Source: Acidobacteriota bacterium (lineage in GTDB: Bacteria > Acidobacteriota > Holophagae > Thermotomaculales > Thermotomaculaceae). From it: a stretch of DNA of 64,000 nucleotides. The notes beneath the pieces were generated by a model. The model saw only the letters and a list, made by a program, of their open reading frames with translations, made no database searches and was not told where the DNA came from. The position numbers and the translations under genes were made by a program. Within the stretch, counting starts at the first letter, position 1. Each line of letters starts with the position of its first letter. The stretch covers positions 1 to 64,000 of the forward strand of contig JAADGL010000026.1 of the NCBI GenBank assembly GCA_013152385.1, written 5' to 3'. Of this stretch, positions 11,463 to 18,802 are shown one piece after another.

Positions 11463-11993
11463 CTACTTCTTTTTCCGTTGAACCGTCCAGTTATTGTAAC
11501 GAAGCATATATGAAGGCACAATATCATCGGCAGAGAAACCGAGATACTCCGCAACCGCCCGGACAAATCCCCTGACATAAACGGCGGCATCGGGCAGGCG
11601 CCCGAAATCTTCCATCTCCAACGCCCGGATATAGTCTTTCCGAACCTTTGTCCGGCGGGAAACTTCATCCAGTGTCACCCCGATTTCATTTCGGGTTCGA
11701 AAAAGAAGCTCTCCGTTCACCGGAGTTCCCTCTTCCACGCGCCTTTGCCGGGGCACCACCCCCTGAGTCTGTGTTTTCAGCTTTTTCAGCAACATCCTGT
11801 ACGCGTTTTCAATCTCATCCAAAAGTTCCAGGCGCTTTGTTTCTGAAAATTCCCGCATTCCCGGAACCGCGGCGGTTGAATCACCGGAATAAATCCGTTT
11901 CAGCATCCGGTACGCGTGCTCAATTTCCTGAAGCGTCGCTCCCGCATCAACTTCAAGAATCCTGTAATACTGTTCCAGGCCGTCTCCGTTCAT
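11463..11993 (-). CDS. J-like domain plus RodZ-type helix-turn-helix protein
   Basis: A 176-residue soluble protein with two parts. Residues 5-80 look like a J domain (YYRILEVDAGATLQEIEHAY, later EIENAYRMLLKKL), but the HPD loop is absent (YSGDSTA in its place), so it should not activate DnaK. Residues 100-165 form a RodZ-type HTH_25 domain: RTRNEIGVTLDEVSRRT, then KVRKDYIRALE and LPDAAVYVRGF. Unlike RodZ there is no transmembrane helix. The start at the ATG at 11993 overlaps the stop codon of the upstream MinD-like gene by 4 bases (ATGA), indicating tight coupling and probably a shared complex. The function is unknown; I infer an adaptor or scaffold for the ATPase. Confidence 0.8.
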   Translation of the reverse strand: MNGDGLEQYYRILEVDAGATLQEIEHAYRMLKRIYSGDSTAAVPGMREFSETKRLELLDEIENAYRMLLKKLKTQTQGVVPRQRRVEEGTPVNGELLFRTRNEIGVTLDEVSRRTKVRKDYIRALEMEDFGRLPDAAVYVRGFVRAVAEYLGFSADDIVPSYMLRYNNWTVQRKKK

Positions 11994-12910
11994 CCCGTCT
12001 CCCCCGAAACACCGGGACGCAGTGAAGCTCCCTCTGACAGCCTGTCCGTAACTCTGCACATATCCACCATAATCCGGGCGGCCGAAACACGGCTGAGACA
12101 AACCTGATCCTGAAGCAGACGGTCCCAGAAATCCCGATCATAGCGAACGTGACCGGCAAAAGAAGCGGGGATTCCCAGATACTTCTCCGTCATACTCTTC
12201 ACGGCAAACCCGGTTTCCGTCTGCCGGTAATCCCGAACCTTGTTCAGTACAATGTGCACCCGGAAGTCACGCATCGCCTCCCCGTACAACTGCCCGAATT
12301 CCGGATAATGCCCGCTGAGGTAATCTGTAAATTCCTCCATCGAAGAGAGGTTAAAATCACTCCGCCTGGCCCATATTTCCCTTGCCTCATTCCGAATCCC
12401 GGCTTTGGTAAACAACGGAGAAAGTTTGCGAAAGAAAGCACTCTTAATAAAAACATACAGATTTTCTATCGCCATCCGTTCCGGTACCGTTACCACAATC
12501 ATCCGGTCCGCTTCCAGAAAAACATCCAGTGTCTTATGGTGACTGCCCGCACCGAGGTCCAGCAGAACCACATCTGCCTGAAGTTTTTTCAGTTGACGGA
12601 AAAATTTCACTTTCAGGGCATAAGTCATAGGATTTGTACCGGAGCTGTTTAAATCTCCCGCAATAATCGAAAGGCCCGGCACCGGTGTTTCCAAAATCAG
12701 TTCAGACAGCTGCGCACTGCCCCTGACAAATTCGCCGTAAGAGTGCCCGGGCTTCAGAACCGCACAATAGGTATGGAGATTCGCTCCGCCAAAATCCGCA
12801 TCAACCAGAATCACTTTCAATCCTCTCTCGGCAAGACACACACCGAGGCCGGAAGTAACGAAACTCTTGCCCGTGCCTCCTTTTCCTCCTCCTACGGCCC
12901 AGATCTGCAT
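11990..12910 (-). CDS. MinD/ParA-like ATPase, partner of the J-like/HTH protein
   Basis: A 306-residue deviant-Walker ATPase starting at the ATG at 12910. Its P-loop is WAVGGGKGGTGKSFVTSGLG, with switch LVDADFGGANLHTY and Walker B VVLLDLGAGSHHKTLDVFLE. A helical insertion with FIKSAFFRKLSPLF corresponds to a similar insertion in the 10170 gene (TKAILFRMIRLIF), so the two are likely members of one subfamily. It lacks a FlhG-type N-terminal DQAxxLR segment and an obvious MinD membrane-targeting helix. Its stop codon overlaps the next gene's start by 4 bases. Such ATPases normally cycle on a membrane or the nucleoid to place cargo; the cargo is unknown. Confidence 0.86.
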   Translation of the reverse strand: MQIWAVGGGKGGTGKSFVTSGLGVCLAERGLKVILVDADFGGANLHTYCAVLKPGHSYGEFVRGSAQLSELILETPVPGLSIIAGDLNSSGTNPMTYALKVKFFRQLKKLQADVVLLDLGAGSHHKTLDVFLEADRMIVVTVPERMAIENLYVFIKSAFFRKLSPLFTKAGIRNEAREIWARRSDFNLSSMEEFTDYLSGHYPEFGQLYGEAMRDFRVHIVLNKVRDYRQTETGFAVKSMTEKYLGIPASFAGHVRYDRDFWDRLLQDQVCLSRVSAARIMVDMCRVTDRLSEGASLRPGVSGETG

Positions 12911-14145: not shown

Positions 14146-14172
14146 GGGCGGGGTGATTCCCGCCCTTTTTTT
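14146..14172 (+). terminator. Intrinsic terminator of trxB
   Basis: A 7 bp stem GGGCGGG/CCCGCCC (14146-14152 and 14159-14165) with a 6-base loop is followed by seven T residues, 8 bases after the trxB stop codon. It overlaps a possible GTG start of the next gene, which argues against that start. Confidence 0.9.
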
Positions 14173-14179
14173 AATTATT

Positions 14180-14686
14180 ATGTTACTGGTAGCGGGGATT
14201 GCGGGAAAAGTCATTGTCATTCTGGTTCTTCTGATTGCGCTGGCATTGACGCTCACGGGATTTGCCGGCAGTGCATTGGCTTTTCTCGACGCCCTCATCT
14301 ATGGCTGGGCTACCGGTTTTCAGTCCATGTCTTTTCATGTTTTAATTATACTCTTTGTTCTTATGGCACTGGCAGAGTTGATTGAGTTTCTCTCCGGCAC
14401 CATCGGAGCCAAAACCTTCCATGCTTCCAAGCAGGCGGTCTGGGGCTCTGTCATCGGCATGTTTGCGGGTTCACTGCTGGCAATTGTGACGTTTCAGTTC
14501 TACCTGATTCCAGCGGGCCTCATCCTCGGGGTGATTATCGGTGAAACCGTCGCAGGCAGGACAGAAGCCGGAACAATTTTTCGTTCCGTAGCCGGTGTCC
14601 TTATCGGAAAAATCAGCGGGATCATCCTCAAGTCCCTTATTGTCGTGGCAATGTCAATAATTATTATTTTTCATCTTTTCGGCTGA
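14180..14686 (+). CDS. DUF456 family membrane protein
   Basis: An integral membrane protein of 168 residues with about four to five hydrophobic helices. The signature region reads ELIEFLSGTIGAKTFHASKQ, then AVWGSVIGMFAG and GLILGVIIGE, matching the DUF456 family, whose function is unknown. In-frame starts exist at GTG 14153 and ATG 14180. I chose 14180 because 14153 lies in the loop of the trxB terminator. Neither has a clear ribosome-binding site, so the start remains open. The last 23 bases overlap the convergent gene on the minus strand. Confidence 0.78.
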   Translation: MLLVAGIAGKVIVILVLLIALALTLTGFAGSALAFLDALIYGWATGFQSMSFHVLIILFVLMALAELIEFLSGTIGAKTFHASKQAVWGSVIGMFAGSLLAIVTFQFYLIPAGLILGVIIGETVAGRTEAGTIFRSVAGVLIGKISGIILKSLIVVAMSIIIIFHLFG

Positions 14687-15317
14687 GCAGCGCAGAAGCA
14701 GAATGCCGAATCAGGGGATGGAGGGAAAGTGTTTTCTCAATTGCCGCCAGTTCAGGTTTCGTCATTTGTTTCAATGAAATCAATGCTGTGGTTAAATCGG
14801 TCTTTTTGCAATAGACAAGCGCAGTTCGAACAGACCGCCGATTCTGCCAGAGCCGGTGGTTTGCAATCATAATTGAAAAATCAGCCTGCATTGCAGGAGA
14901 GTGAATCAGCTGAACCAGCGCACTTTCCGTCATTCTGGGATTATCCAGCAGCACGGAAAACAGCCCGGGCTGATCCTGCTTCATGACCCAGGAAAACAGT
15001 TTTGGCGGACACACCCTGGCAAGTGCTTTCCACTCCCCTGCCGCCGCTCTTTCCATACGCTGTCTCAACAAACGCAGTGCTTTTTGCTTTGCCCGTTCCA
15101 CCACCGCAGGGCAGTCCATAACTTTCAATAGATCCCGCCAGAAAAGATGGGGAAAAATGAGTTCCCGAAGGCTCTCCGGGCAGCGGGGATGAAGGGACAA
15201 AGCGACCCATACGGCATGCGCATGTTTCTCTTTGCGGTTCAGTTCATATATTTCTTCAAGTACCGGGCCCGGCGTCGATGGATTCAGTACCAGGCGCCGC
15301 ATTTCTTTCAATTCCAC
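14664..15317 (-). CDS. Hypothetical protein, helical-repeat-like
   Basis: About 217 residues, not assigned to a named family. The sequence is rich in Leu, Ala and Arg and looks like successive two-helix units (for example PRCPESLRELIFPH, NPRMTESALVQLIHSPAM, HPLIRHSASALLSR), as in HEAT/VHS-like repeats. There is no signal peptide or membrane segment. A GTG at 15317 sits 5 bases after GGAGG; GTG 15320 and ATG 15302 are alternatives. It overlaps the preceding membrane-protein gene by about 60 bases in another frame and is the last gene of the 18.8-14.7 kb minus-strand cluster. Its role there is unknown. Confidence 0.65.
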   Translation of the reverse strand: MELKEMRRLVLNPSTPGPVLEEIYELNRKEKHAHAVWVALSLHPRCPESLRELIFPHLFWRDLLKVMDCPAVVERAKQKALRLLRQRMERAAAGEWKALARVCPPKLFSWVMKQDQPGLFSVLLDNPRMTESALVQLIHSPAMQADFSIMIANHRLWQNRRSVRTALVYCKKTDLTTALISLKQMTKPELAAIEKTLSLHPLIRHSASALLSRKDEK

Positions 15318-15888
15318 CACATCCTCCGCTGCGCACCGTACAAAAGAGCACTGCCGCAGTTGTCAGCTGAATCAAATCAAGGGGAATTGCAAAAACCGGT
15401 TGAAACCGGTATGCATGTTCCCAGAACAAATAGAAGAAAACATATATAAGAGAAACAATACAATAAACCGATAAAGAAGGGGCCAGTACAACCGCCAGGC
15501 CTTTCACACGGGAAACCGCATAAATCAGAGCTCCGATTGCCAATACACCGGGAAAAACCACCGGAATCCGAAACCCGGCGTATCGGGCAAGGAAAAAAAA
15601 GAAAAACACCAGTAGAACAACCGAAACCCGAAATGGAATTTTATTGTCCCGCAGCAGAAGAAAAAGAACACCGAAAAGAACCGCCCGGAATACCGCAGGC
15701 GGTGCCACAAGAATGAAAGCAAACTGAAGAACCACAAAAAACCACGGACGCGGTGCAGTAAGAATAAAGAAAAATGTCATTCCCACCAGAAAGTAATCCG
15801 CAGCAGCATTTGGGATCAGAAACAGTGCAAACCACTGACATCCGTAAATGAAAAGGAGAATATCAGTTCGTTTCAGGAATTTCATCAT
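15256..15888 (-). CDS. Hypothetical polytopic membrane protein
   Basis: A 210-residue protein dominated by hydrophobic helices, about six, with runs such as VLLVFFFFFLARY. The C-terminal 25 residues are hydrophilic and Gly-rich, and lie in the region overlapping the next gene. I recognise no catalytic motif or family. It overlaps the DUF4388 gene upstream by 26 bases and the helical-repeat gene downstream by about 60, so the cluster is translated as a unit. Tandem ATGs at 15888 and 15885 are both possible starts. Confidence 0.62.
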   Translation of the reverse strand: MMKFLKRTDILLFIYGCQWFALFLIPNAAADYFLVGMTFFFILTAPRPWFFVVLQFAFILVAPPAVFRAVLFGVLFLLLRDNKIPFRVSVVLLVFFFFFLARYAGFRIPVVFPGVLAIGALIYAVSRVKGLAVVLAPSLSVYCIVSLIYVFFYLFWEHAYRFQPVFAIPLDLIQLTTAAVLFCTVRSGGCGGIERNAAPGTESIDAGPGT

Positions 15889-17008
15889 TTAAAGCTTTCT
15901 GCCACTGGATGGAAAAGGGAATCCGGAGACCATACTTTCCGGGAAGCATATACCGGTCTTCTCCAACTGTAATCATGCTGCCGGGCCGTACGGAAAAATC
16001 ACTCTTGATAATACGATGAAGCTCACCTACCCTCATTTTTTCCAATCTTCCGAACTCGTTGAGCTTCTCAACGTCCGACTGGCGGTCTATCCGGCTGTAT
16101 GCAGGAAACAGACGGCTCACCGGACTGTGAAATGAAAACAGAAACCCGATTAAAAACAGGATACCTACCAGGATAGCGACCGGAGTGCTGTACTCTTTAC
16201 GCTCCTCCGTATAGCGGAAATAATCGGAAACAGCCGGAACGGTATATTCCGTTTTTTCTATAAATCCGCCTTCATGCAAATCATACAGGTTTCGGAATGT
16301 TTCAAACTCAATCAATTTGGATTTGTCACTGATTTCTTTAACAGATGAAACGCCATCCACCAGATTGAGCACATATACCTGGTCGTGGGGCAAACTGATG
16401 GACTCAATTTCACTGCCCAGGCCGGGCTCATCAAAAGATGAAGAAAAAGAATCTCTCACTTTTATTGCTTTATCCGTTCGCCGGAAAACAACATAAGGAT
16501 CTGTGATAACCCGTTCGATCAACGGCCATTCATCCAGCATCCGTAACCCTTCCATCAGAATGCTTTCGGTGGAAATCGGTTCAATGTTGTCTCTGTCAAA
16601 ATCCACCACTTCCCGGGGAGAGAAGTGATAGTGGCCGTTCTTCCAGCGAAACAGGCTGTATACGATTTGCAGTACCTGATTTCTGAGCGCTTCTTTTAAG
16701 TCTGCCGAACCGATGAATCCATTCTCAACCAGAACCTGCCCCAGGCGCTGCAGACTTTCGGACTGGGTTTCCAATGCACGGTTCAACTGTTCCTGAGAAA
16801 TTACGCCGCGTTTTACCAGAACATGCCCCAGGCGGGATTCCGTCTGTTCCGATTCTTTTTCCGCCCCTACGATTGTCCCGTTTTGGAATGTAACCCTGAC
16901 AAGCTCTTCCCCTTCTCTCAGTACCAGCATACCTGTTTTTTTCTGAATACCGATCAATTGGAAAATATCGGCAAGGCTGAAATCTTTTAATGTTCCTTCA
17001 AGTGCCAT
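15863..17008 (-). CDS. DUF4388 (PatA-like) protein with MshEN-like motifs and one membrane helix
   Basis: A 381-residue protein. Residues 1-60 form a DUF4388/PatA-N domain (GTLKDFSLADIFQLIGIQKK, then TGMLVLR). Two repeats follow at about 80-125, RLGHVLVKRGVISQEQL and RLGQVLVENGFIGSADL, which resemble the N-terminal nucleotide-binding motifs of type II secretion/type IV pilus ATPases (MshEN; some bind c-di-GMP). A second DUF4388-like segment spans about 125-165. A hydrophobic helix at about 275-294 is followed by a roughly 85-residue tail that I predict to be periplasmic. DUF4388 proteins in Myxococcota and relatives occur with gliding or signalling systems. It directly abuts the 586-residue TPR protein, its probable partner. 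Confidence 0.72.
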   Translation of the reverse strand: MALEGTLKDFSLADIFQLIGIQKKTGMLVLREGEELVRVTFQNGTIVGAEKESEQTESRLGHVLVKRGVISQEQLNRALETQSESLQRLGQVLVENGFIGSADLKEALRNQVLQIVYSLFRWKNGHYHFSPREVVDFDRDNIEPISTESILMEGLRMLDEWPLIERVITDPYVVFRRTDKAIKVRDSFSSSFDEPGLGSEIESISLPHDQVYVLNLVDGVSSVKEISDKSKLIEFETFRNLYDLHEGGFIEKTEYTVPAVSDYFRYTEERKEYSTPVAILVGILFLIGFLFSFHSPVSRLFPAYSRIDRQSDVEKLNEFGRLEKMRVGELHRIIKSDFSVRPGSMITVGEDRYMLPGKYGLRIPFSIQWQKALNDEIPETN

Positions 17009-18769
17009 TTAATCTTCTCCCAGTTCCGGCACAATCCCGAAAATATTTATGACCAGAATAAAAACAATCACCAGCAGAAAAGGCACTGCCAGAAACCAGC
17101 TTCCCAATAATTTTAATTCGCTCCGGGATAACAGCAGACATCCGGAAAACAGAAAATATGAAAATACGCCGCGAACCCCAGTTTCATTAACAAAGATATT
17201 ATACGTTCCGGGAATTAACAAGCCAATGGTTCCCTGAATAATCTTCCGGATACGATTGTATTTACGAATACTTTCCACTTTTGCCATCCGCTTTCCGGAA
17301 TCCAGATTCTCCTTTTTTACAAAGACAGTTACGCACTGTTTACACATCTTGTCATTATGGGATTCCAGAAAGCGGAATGGCTTTCCGCACCGGCTGCAGC
17401 TTTCGGAAATATCCCGGTCACGGAAAATGAATCCCAACAAAAGAAAAATCAGAAAAATGAGAACCACAAAAACCATTTCCTTTTCCCCCGAATCACCACC
17501 GGGTATCACTCCCTTCTGAAAGTGCAGGGTAAAAAGTTTGCCATACAGAAATGCGGCGCCGGGGACTTCGATCATCGGCACCGGATAACGAATTTGTTCA
17601 AGGAGATTTGAAATAACACGGTTCGGGCTTTTTTCATAAACGGATTTCAATTCCGAAGAAGACTCCGCAAGGTTGTAGGTACTGAGCATTACTACAGCAA
17701 GATTATATCCCGGAGTTTTCAAGTTTCCCGATTTTTGTGCCGCTTCCCTGAAAAAATCCCGTGATAATTCGAACTCTTTGAGATGGAAATAGGCCACCCC
17801 GATATTGTTCAAGGCAAAAGGATAGAGATAGGAGGAAGAATCAATTTCTTTGTAAAATGAAATCGCTTCCGAAAACTGCCCCCGGCGCATCCGGTTGGTC
17901 GCCTTTGAAAAAAGCTCCAGCCGTGGCTCCGGATTAAACCCCTCCACCTGCGAAAACGGCATCTCAAGAGATCGATAATAAAGAAATTCAGGAGAAGAAA
18001 CCTGATTCCCCACTTTTGCGGCATACATGAATCCCGCAAGAAATATCAGAACGAGCCCCACGTTGAGAGAAAATGCGATTTTCTCATTTCTTGAAAAATA
18101 TGGAGAAAAGAGCAAACCCCAGTAAATGGGCAAATATTTTGCAGGCACCGTAAACAGAACAGGAAGCAGGTAAAGGAGTGAACTCGCCATCACTCTCAAG
18201 AATTCGGAAGAAATTCTTGCCTCAAGAAACCGGCTGATATCGTGGTGAAAATTTCGTCCGTATTTGATCAGTGCAATCACACCGAAAATACCAAAAAAAA
18301 TCATACCCAGAAGATACAGGCCTTCAAAGCCGCTCAACAGCAGTCGGACCATATTCAACGGGTCTTTCAGCACGGTGGAAAACCCTTTGGAAAGTTCCCC
18401 CAATACCGGTTTCAGTTGGCCGGCAAGAATTAAACGGTCAATTCCGGCAAACCGCCCCCGTTTCCATTCCGGATTCCATTCCTGCAATGCCTTTTTTACA
18501 GCGCTTTCACTCCCCCCGTGTACTGCCGGAGAAAAAAGGTCATCCGAGAAAGGAAAAACCTGATATCCGCCTTCATCCATTGATCGGCGAATTTCATGGA
18601 CAGCCTTTTGCTGTTCAACCGTGGTTTCCGCTTTCAAGCCGTTGATGACCGCAGCTTGAAGCCTGCCGCCAACGCCTTTGGAATCGGCATGTACAGCAAG
18701 GGGCCACCCGCATATACAAAAGATAAGAACCGGGGCAATTAACCGGAAATATTTCGTAACATTCAACAA
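17009..18769 (-). CDS. Exported multi-pass membrane protein with TPR and zinc-ribbon segments
   Basis: A 586-residue protein of no family I can name. Residues 1-28 look like a signal peptide or first membrane helix ending AVHADS. Helices near 145-170, 195-255 and 255-270 precede a TPR-like segment (about 290-380: GQFSEAISFYKEI, FALNNIGVAYFHLKEFELSR). Another helix follows, then CSRCGKPFRFLE and CKQC (about 470-500), a four-cysteine ribbon. The last 100 residues hold two or three more helices. The start is the TTG at 18769 with AGGAG upstream. A promoter lies at 18803-18830, making it the first gene of the minus-strand cluster. A scaffold role is plausible but inferred. Confidence 0.68.
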   Translation of the reverse strand: MLNVTKYFRLIAPVLIFCICGWPLAVHADSKGVGGRLQAAVINGLKAETTVEQQKAVHEIRRSMDEGGYQVFPFSDDLFSPAVHGGSESAVKKALQEWNPEWKRGRFAGIDRLILAGQLKPVLGELSKGFSTVLKDPLNMVRLLLSGFEGLYLLGMIFFGIFGVIALIKYGRNFHHDISRFLEARISSEFLRVMASSLLYLLPVLFTVPAKYLPIYWGLLFSPYFSRNEKIAFSLNVGLVLIFLAGFMYAAKVGNQVSSPEFLYYRSLEMPFSQVEGFNPEPRLELFSKATNRMRRGQFSEAISFYKEIDSSSYLYPFALNNIGVAYFHLKEFELSRDFFREAAQKSGNLKTPGYNLAVVMLSTYNLAESSSELKSVYEKSPNRVISNLLEQIRYPVPMIEVPGAAFLYGKLFTLHFQKGVIPGGDSGEKEMVFVVLIFLIFLLLGFIFRDRDISESCSRCGKPFRFLESHNDKMCKQCVTVFVKKENLDSGKRMAKVESIRKYNRIRKIIQGTIGLLIPGTYNIFVNETGVRGVFSYFLFSGCLLLSRSELKLLGSWFLAVPFLLVIVFILVINIFGIVPELGED

Positions 18770-18802
18770 TTCACTCCTGGGCTCTTCTTTTCATTTGTTG
18801 AA

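Follow-up and report, generated by a model that had tools for sequence, protein, structure and literature searches.

The window analyzed here, i.e., the whole stretch of 64,000 nucleotides of contig JAADGL010000026.1 from an Acidobacteriota bacterium (Holophagae, Thermotomaculaceae), contains at 14664-18769 a cluster of four minus-strand open reading frames (ORFs) with abutting or overlapping ends. In the order of transcription they encode a 586-residue tetratricopeptide repeat (TPR) membrane protein, a 381-residue DUF4388 protein, a hydrophobic protein of 210 residues (orf2) and a helical protein of 218 residues (orf1). The genome holding the cluster (G000:C38) has a size of 2.57 Mb and is 99% complete. 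The TAA codon of the TPR gene (17009-17011) is directly followed by the ATG codon of the DUF4388 gene (17008), i.e., with a gap of 0; the DUF4388 gene overlaps orf2 by 26 bp and orf2 overlaps orf1 by 65 bp. AGGAG is found 5' of the TTG start of the TPR gene and GGAGGAT 5' of the GTG start of orf1. A first-pass annotation, made from the sequence, had described these four genes, and all the ORFs are indeed found at these coordinates and on this strand. It had also placed them behind one promoter. In the sigma-70 scan, no promoter-like site is listed on the minus strand upstream of 18769, and the 8 promoter-like sites of the region are in no clear excess over the 5.4 ± 2.5 expected from shuffles. 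A single promoter was thus not retained as shown.

The DUF4388 protein matches Pfam DUF4388 (127.4 bits, cut-off 25), as do 23 of 23 members of the DUF4388 alignment (A2) at E<=1. Pfam DUF4388 and PATAN are taken here to be one domain. The match is in two stretches because an insert splits the domain. According to Wang et al. 2016 (PMC5013675), MshE-type ATPases, which belong to pilus and secretion systems, bind cyclic di-GMP (c-di-GMP) with their MshEN domain through two 24-residue motifs and a 5-residue spacer, the motif RLGxx(L/V/I)(L/V/I)xxG(..)(..)xxxxLxxxLxxQ being used twice. The insert (residues 59-111) is made of a 24-residue half, a 5-residue spacer and a second 24-residue half, and it fits the VcMshEN form of this motif, which permits the Phe found at position 11 of the second half. 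The protein holds two strict and two relaxed 24-residue motifs (at residues 59 and 88). Upon 20,000 shuffles of the same protein, none holds one strict motif and 13 hold one relaxed motif. The two LGxVLVxxGxI repeats noticed in the first-pass annotation are thus real, but they are located in residues 59-111 and not in residues 80-125 as proposed.

The MshEN-like nature of these repeats is also supported. The NCBIfam c-di-GMP motif model covers residues 59-111 with 63.3 bits (cut-off 38). When the window's genome is considered, the DUF4388 protein (67.2 bits) ranks second among 8 MshEN matches, and three T2SSE/PilB-type ATPases of the same genome score at its level. The AlphaFold model (mean predicted local distance difference test, pLDDT, 70.9) has four helices at the insert. 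These are superimposed by Foldseek on MshE with c-di-GMP (5htl_B) with a root mean square deviation of 0.6 A over 53 columns (40% identity, probability 1.00). Another structure search gives Z 7.5 and 2.1 A for 59 aligned residues. The MshEN fold of the repeats, on which their assignment depends, is thus supported. The relatives were studied through 80 named loci, taken as the best 80 among the 366 relatives that the DUF4388 alignment retrieves and thus not a random sample; residues were counted in 79 of these 80, L153 being left out as too short. The 53-residue insert and its spacing are present in 79/79 readable orthologs, all 23 A2 members have a match to the MshEN model (E 1.3e-17 at best), and Arg, Gly and Gln are found in both halves in 64 of the 79 orthologs. 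Four further DUF4388 proteins of the window's genome (G000 C35, C22, C11 and C19) overlap MshEN-model matches at the insert, two of them above the cut-off; MshEN-like inserts in DUF4388 are therefore common in this genome.

The DUF4388 domain is followed by a winged-helix-like domain, a single transmembrane helix and a tail. The best structural match of the winged helix (model residues 162-257) is a chain of the GATOR1 complex (Z 9.5), the fold being a common one. The transmembrane helix, already proposed in the first-pass annotation, is found at about 275-293. The tails of the orthologs resemble the head of the pseudopilin GspG. Among the members of A2, 12 of 23 match T2SSG at E<=1; upon 10 orthologs inspected, 3 are above the curated Pfam cut-off. 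A profile of the tails (A4, made of 36 of the 76 tails extracted, including that of the same-genus L089) has GspG in all its top seven PDB rows (best 7.8e-5). Its matches in the window's genome are a true GspG carrying a prepilin signal, pilin-like proteins, a lipoprotein that has this same head, and also the window protein; this last match is partly built in because A4 contains L089. On the basis of these profiles, the part of the orthologs located after the membrane helix is a GspG-pseudopilin-like head. There is no N-terminal prepilin peptidase signal (GFTxxE type) in the DUF4388 protein: it starts with the DUF4388 domain and its transmembrane helix lies at 275-293. A putative lipoprotein of the same genome (L183, G000:C29:19448-19660) has a GspG-like head without a prepilin signal; such heads are therefore reused outside pilins. 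Rows of the structure search corresponding to Fumarase C and Pfam matches below cut-off were treated as chance folds.

The 586-residue partner contains two of the features that had been assigned to it, i.e., TPRs and a CxxC...CxxC motif. Its predicted layout is: a signal peptide, a periplasmic helical N-part, a four-helix membrane block, periplasmic TPRs, a transmembrane helix, a cytoplasmic CxxC-x14-CxxC and two C-terminal transmembrane helices. The AlphaFold model has a mean pLDDT of 79.9. C458, C461, C476 and C479 are invariant in 35/35 aligned rows; the Pfam zinc-ribbon/FYVE matches are below cut-off. The predicted orientation is given by the charge bias. The excess of Lys plus Arg is on the N-side of transmembrane helix 4 in 23 of the 35 rows and on its C-side in 5, leading to a TPR region outside. 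For transmembrane helix 5 it is on the C-side in 29/35 and on the N-side in 1, leading to a Cys motif inside. Transmembrane helices 1 and 6 give no decision. Foldseek finds only generic TPR superhelices for the model. Co-chaperone TPRs are among the structures matched by the TPR region, though TPRs resemble one another broadly.

The nearest named relatives of the locus are two metagenome-assembled genomes labelled Acidobacteria/Acidobacteriota. The named relatives are Acidobacteriota, including Thermoanaerobaculia, Holophagae and Acanthopleuribacter pedis. In at least 81 of 99 relatives (<=700 bp between the matched parts), the TPR gene is directly upstream of the DUF4388 gene and has the same strand. 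This value was obtained from the best DUF4388 match (E below ~1e-28) and the best TPR match of each genome, weaker paralogue rows and the second TPR match of G098 being dropped. It is a lower bound, since G095, G096 and G097 were scored as non-adjacent though the profiles put both genes side by side. For the named loci, the partner is upstream on the same strand in 80/80, and most start/stop junctions are within ~20 bp; in L120 and L127 the frame of the partner stops ~370 bp short.

An even sample of Acidobacteriota was also considered (60 genomes, >=90% complete, the window's own included). With profile cut-offs of E<=1e-10 for the C-terminal part of the partner (A5) and E<=1e-50 for DUF4388 (A2), both genes are found in the same 32 genomes and neither is found alone. 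They are adjacent in 31 of these 32, G116 having them on separate contigs. No weight is given to the Fisher value calculated for this sample, as it takes no account of kinship between the genomes. With looser defaults, A5 matches 40 of the 60 genomes; A2 matches 35/60 at 1e-30.

The two other genes behave differently. Relatives of orf2 are found in 6/20 regions, all within the window's family. Relatives of orf1 are found directly downstream of the pair in 7 of the 80 named loci (14/100 loci when duplicate copies of the same contigs count). The two genes do not travel together. No Pfam match is above cut-off for orf1, orf2, six relatives of orf1 or one relative of orf2; an LRV-like repeat in orf1 was rejected as a sub-threshold match (13.7 bits, cut-off 27). 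The order of four genes, put forward as one unit, was thus rejected because orf1 and orf2 come and go independently, while its TPR-DUF4388 part was retained as a two-gene core. The unit consists of two core genes plus two lineage-restricted accessories.

The coordinates of all these features are as follows.

Features of the cluster in the window, with their position, strand and supporting evidence.
Feature	Position	Strand	Evidence
TPR / zinc-ribbon-like polytopic membrane protein, 586 aa, TTG start	17009..18769	-	ORF, Pfam, AlphaFold, topology
TPR region, residues 282-391, predicted periplasmic	17597..17926	-	TPR_2 27.8 bits (cut-off 27), model, charge bias
C458-C461...C476-C479 zinc-ribbon-like motif, predicted cytoplasmic	17333..17398	-	conserved Cys
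AGGAG, ribosome-binding-like site before the TTG start of the TPR gene	18774..18778	-	sequence
DUF4388 (PATAN) protein, 381 aa, with MshEN insert, winged helix, transmembrane helix and tail	15863..17008	-	ORF, Pfam, NCBIfam, model
DUF4388/PATAN domain, first part, residues 1-54	16847..17008	-	Pfam, model
MshEN c-di-GMP motif pair, residues 59-111 (24 + 5 + 24)	16676..16834	-	NCBIfam, motif, structure match 5htl_B
DUF4388/PATAN domain, second part, residues 112-160	16529..16675	-	Pfam, model
Winged-helix-like domain, residues ~207-250	16259..16390	-	model, structure search
Single transmembrane helix, residues 275-293	16130..16186	-	sequence; hydropathy >=1.6 in 76/79 orthologs
Predicted periplasmic tail, residues 294-381, position homologous to the GspG-pseudopilin-like head of orthologs, diverged	15866..16129	-	profiles, model
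orf2, 210 aa, ~six hydrophobic segments, accessory, found in the window's family only	15256..15888	-	ORF, regions compared
orf1, 218 aa, helical repeat-like orphan, accessory, window's genus and Acanthopleuribacter group	14664..15320	-	ORF, Pfam, loci compared

The two core proteins may form a c-di-GMP receptor complex of the inner membrane, a reading to which about even chances are given; type IV pilus or type II secretion machines are its possible targets. The results presented here show the pairing of the genes, the anatomy of the domains, the intact motif of the window's copy and a predicted topology. Binding of c-di-GMP, the physical complex and the direction of the signal are inferred as follows. 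On the cytoplasmic side, the four MshEN helices inserted into the DUF4388/PATAN protein would bind c-di-GMP. The PATAN platform at the inner membrane face would then shift together with the winged helix next to it, and this shift would be relayed through the single membrane helix to the pseudopilin-like tail in the periplasm. The polytopic TPR partner, whose gene lies directly upstream, would be an envelope scaffold holding the receptor: its periplasmic TPRs would face the tail, and its cytoplasmic zinc-ribbon-like motif the PATAN/MshEN side. The signal may thus pass to the TPR scaffold and to the pseudopilin-like tail outside. The output is the most speculative part: type IV pilus or type II secretion machinery was chosen on the ground that, in other systems, a link to these machines exists for each of MshEN, PATAN and GspG-like heads. 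A more precise version is rather doubtful: an Acidobacteriota-wide membrane complex that would couple c-di-GMP to type IV pilus/type II secretion via a regulatory «dummy pseudopilin», with a PATAN-MshEN receptor whose membrane helix and GspG-like head would enter or cap the pseudopilus while held by the TPR/zinc-ribbon partner.

If the receptor reading is true, the conserved two-gene unit would give Acidobacteriota, many members of which are uncultured, a named and testable c-di-GMP output. Moreover, the place where MshEN works would be a PATAN protein of the membrane instead of a secretion ATPase, and a signalling protein would make use of a pseudopilin-like head. The 15 GGDEF matches of the genome indicate that this cell probably makes c-di-GMP. 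GGDEF is found in 10/10 tested genomes holding the pair (by adjacency scoring or L088) vs. 11/14 tested others; these others include G096, which holds a diverged pair by profile, and the three without GGDEF are one small-genome genus. The co-occurrence of GGDEF and the pair is thus only suggestive. The three genomes of that genus (G031, G045 and G057, 0.9-1.2 Mb, in the window's class) have no GGDEF match and no pair and keep a T2SSE-type ATPase. The co-occurrence with pili is uninformative, a T2SSE ATPase being found in 23/24 tested genomes, with or without the pair.

Several observations weigh against a c-di-GMP receptor linked to pili or secretion: (i) the Foldseek E value of the MshEN match is poor (0.59), the query being a long multi-domain chain; (ii) all seven key residues are found in both halves in only 9 of the 79 orthologs, and the general consensus of Wang, which disallows the Phe of the second half in the window's genus, is satisfied in both halves by none of the 79; (iii) the nearest sister genus is without the first Arg and the last Gln of the motif, and the conserved role of the pair may therefore not be c-di-GMP binding; (iv) the window's own tail has no Pfam T2SSG match and is modelled by AlphaFold at low confidence (pLDDT <50 from residue 333); (v) G003, of the window's genus and 94% complete, shows no ortholog of the pair, yet has 9 GGDEF and 8 T2SSE matches; (vi) no pilus or secretion gene was recognised beside the pair in the neighbour clusters listed, whose ORFs were not domain-typed; (vii) the pair is directly followed by dnaK, at a distance of 31-286 bp and with the same strand, in 21 of the 80 named loci, which hints at another role. 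When 100 loci are considered, the pair is directly upstream of dnaK in 22 (e.g., L087, L107, L113, L115, L126, L131, L145, L146 and L159), and hspR-like and sigma-factor genes often follow. This neighbourhood fits a stress-linked role or plain hitchhiking.

In another explanation, the insert is mainly a protein-binding helical bundle and the pair a constitutive membrane scaffold, c-di-GMP binding being retained or regained only in some lineages, e.g., the window's genus. The insert and its spacing are indeed kept in every readable ortholog while the key residues are not, all the members of A2 match the MshEN model, and the sister genus has lost the key Arg and Gln. This explanation is nevertheless somewhat unlikely: the window's copy has an intact motif, which equals in strength that of the PilB-type ATPases of the same genome, most orthologs keep Arg, Gly and Gln in both halves, and Wang 2016 (PMC5013675) indicates that perfect conservation of the motif may not be needed for binding.

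The dnaK-hspR-sigma neighbourhood would be accounted for by an envelope assembly or quality-control pair, with the TPR protein as a holdase-like scaffold in the periplasm and the DUF4388 protein informing the heat-shock system of the state of the envelope. The co-chaperone TPRs found among the fold matches go in the same direction, though TPRs are broadly alike. Such a role is improbable, since dnaK is not next door in the window or in 59 of the 80 named loci (some of them cut by contig ends), its proximity elsewhere can be hitchhiking, and nothing chaperone-specific is found in the proteins. The winged helix of the model, located between PATAN and the membrane helix, could also bind DNA under the control of the tail or of c-di-GMP. 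The protein would then be likened to ToxR/CadC-type regulators, which are membrane-bound transcription regulators. Weak TrmB/MarR/IclR matches are observed in orthologs, but those inspected are below the curated cut-offs and the best structural match is the GATOR1-complex chain, not a DNA-bound regulator; this last explanation is thus very improbable.

The receptor proposed here can be compared with several known systems. As in MshE-type ATPases, two 24-residue motifs and a 5-residue spacer form a four-helix bundle (0.6 A on 5htl_B). Contrary to these ATPases, MshEN is inside a membrane DUF4388/PATAN protein and not at the N-terminus of a secretion ATPase, and binding is predicted. The PATAN/DUF4388 domain is shared with the cyanobacterial PixG, PixE, LsiR and PatA. 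PATAN regulators act on PilB1 in Synechocystis and are CheY-like response regulators (PMC9090330, PMC7690835). The window protein has no receiver domain and instead a winged helix, a transmembrane helix, a pseudopilin-like tail and a fixed TPR partner; no Pfam match to a CheY-like receiver is found at E<=1 in this protein, and the 22 families listed for the 23 A2 members do not include one. The head of the major pseudopilin GspG (T2SSG, PF08334) is matched by the tails that the orthologs have after the transmembrane helix, whereas the DUF4388 protein has no prepilin signal, its transmembrane helix is internal after a 270-residue cytoplasmic part, and the window's tail is diverged. NfrB, a c-di-GMP-activated glycosyltransferase with MshEN, is also a case of MshEN in a membrane-associated system, and its MshEN part is matched through NCBIfam; the window protein is without a glycosyltransferase domain. 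The Myxococcus pilus regulator SgmX co-occurs with two PATAN proteins and a TPR protein (PMC11580455).

In the literature searched, no paper was found on the TPR-DUF4388 pair, on the pseudopilin-like tail or on DUF4388 in (c-di-GMP) signalling. Nothing was found on PATAN together with MshEN beyond cyanobacterial pilus and phototaxis work, nothing on the TPR/zinc-ribbon/PATAN combination, and only unrelated work on MshEN in Acidobacteria. The PATAN domain with a helical insert was reportedly described by Makarova in 2006, the insert being named «alpha-clip». PATAN with a helical insert and MshEN are thus already known, while the pair and the pseudopilin-like tail are undescribed in the literature found. 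The first-pass annotation had spoken of an undescribed trans-envelope signalling or assembly unit. The envelope-spanning anatomy, the conserved partnership and the lack of a paper agree with this view for the pair, but not for the four genes as one unit.

Concerning the surroundings of the cluster, a gene for a DUF456 membrane protein (14153-14686, plus strand) converges on orf1 with an overlap of 23 bp. The trxB-like and DUF456 genes adjoin the cluster in 6/6 family members examined. Further away (11463-12910, minus strand), a MinD/ParA-like gene overlaps the gene of a 212-residue protein. The latter has a weak DnaJ match (25.5 bits, cut-off 27.8) and a RodZ-type HTH_25 domain (63.9 bits, cut-off 24.6).

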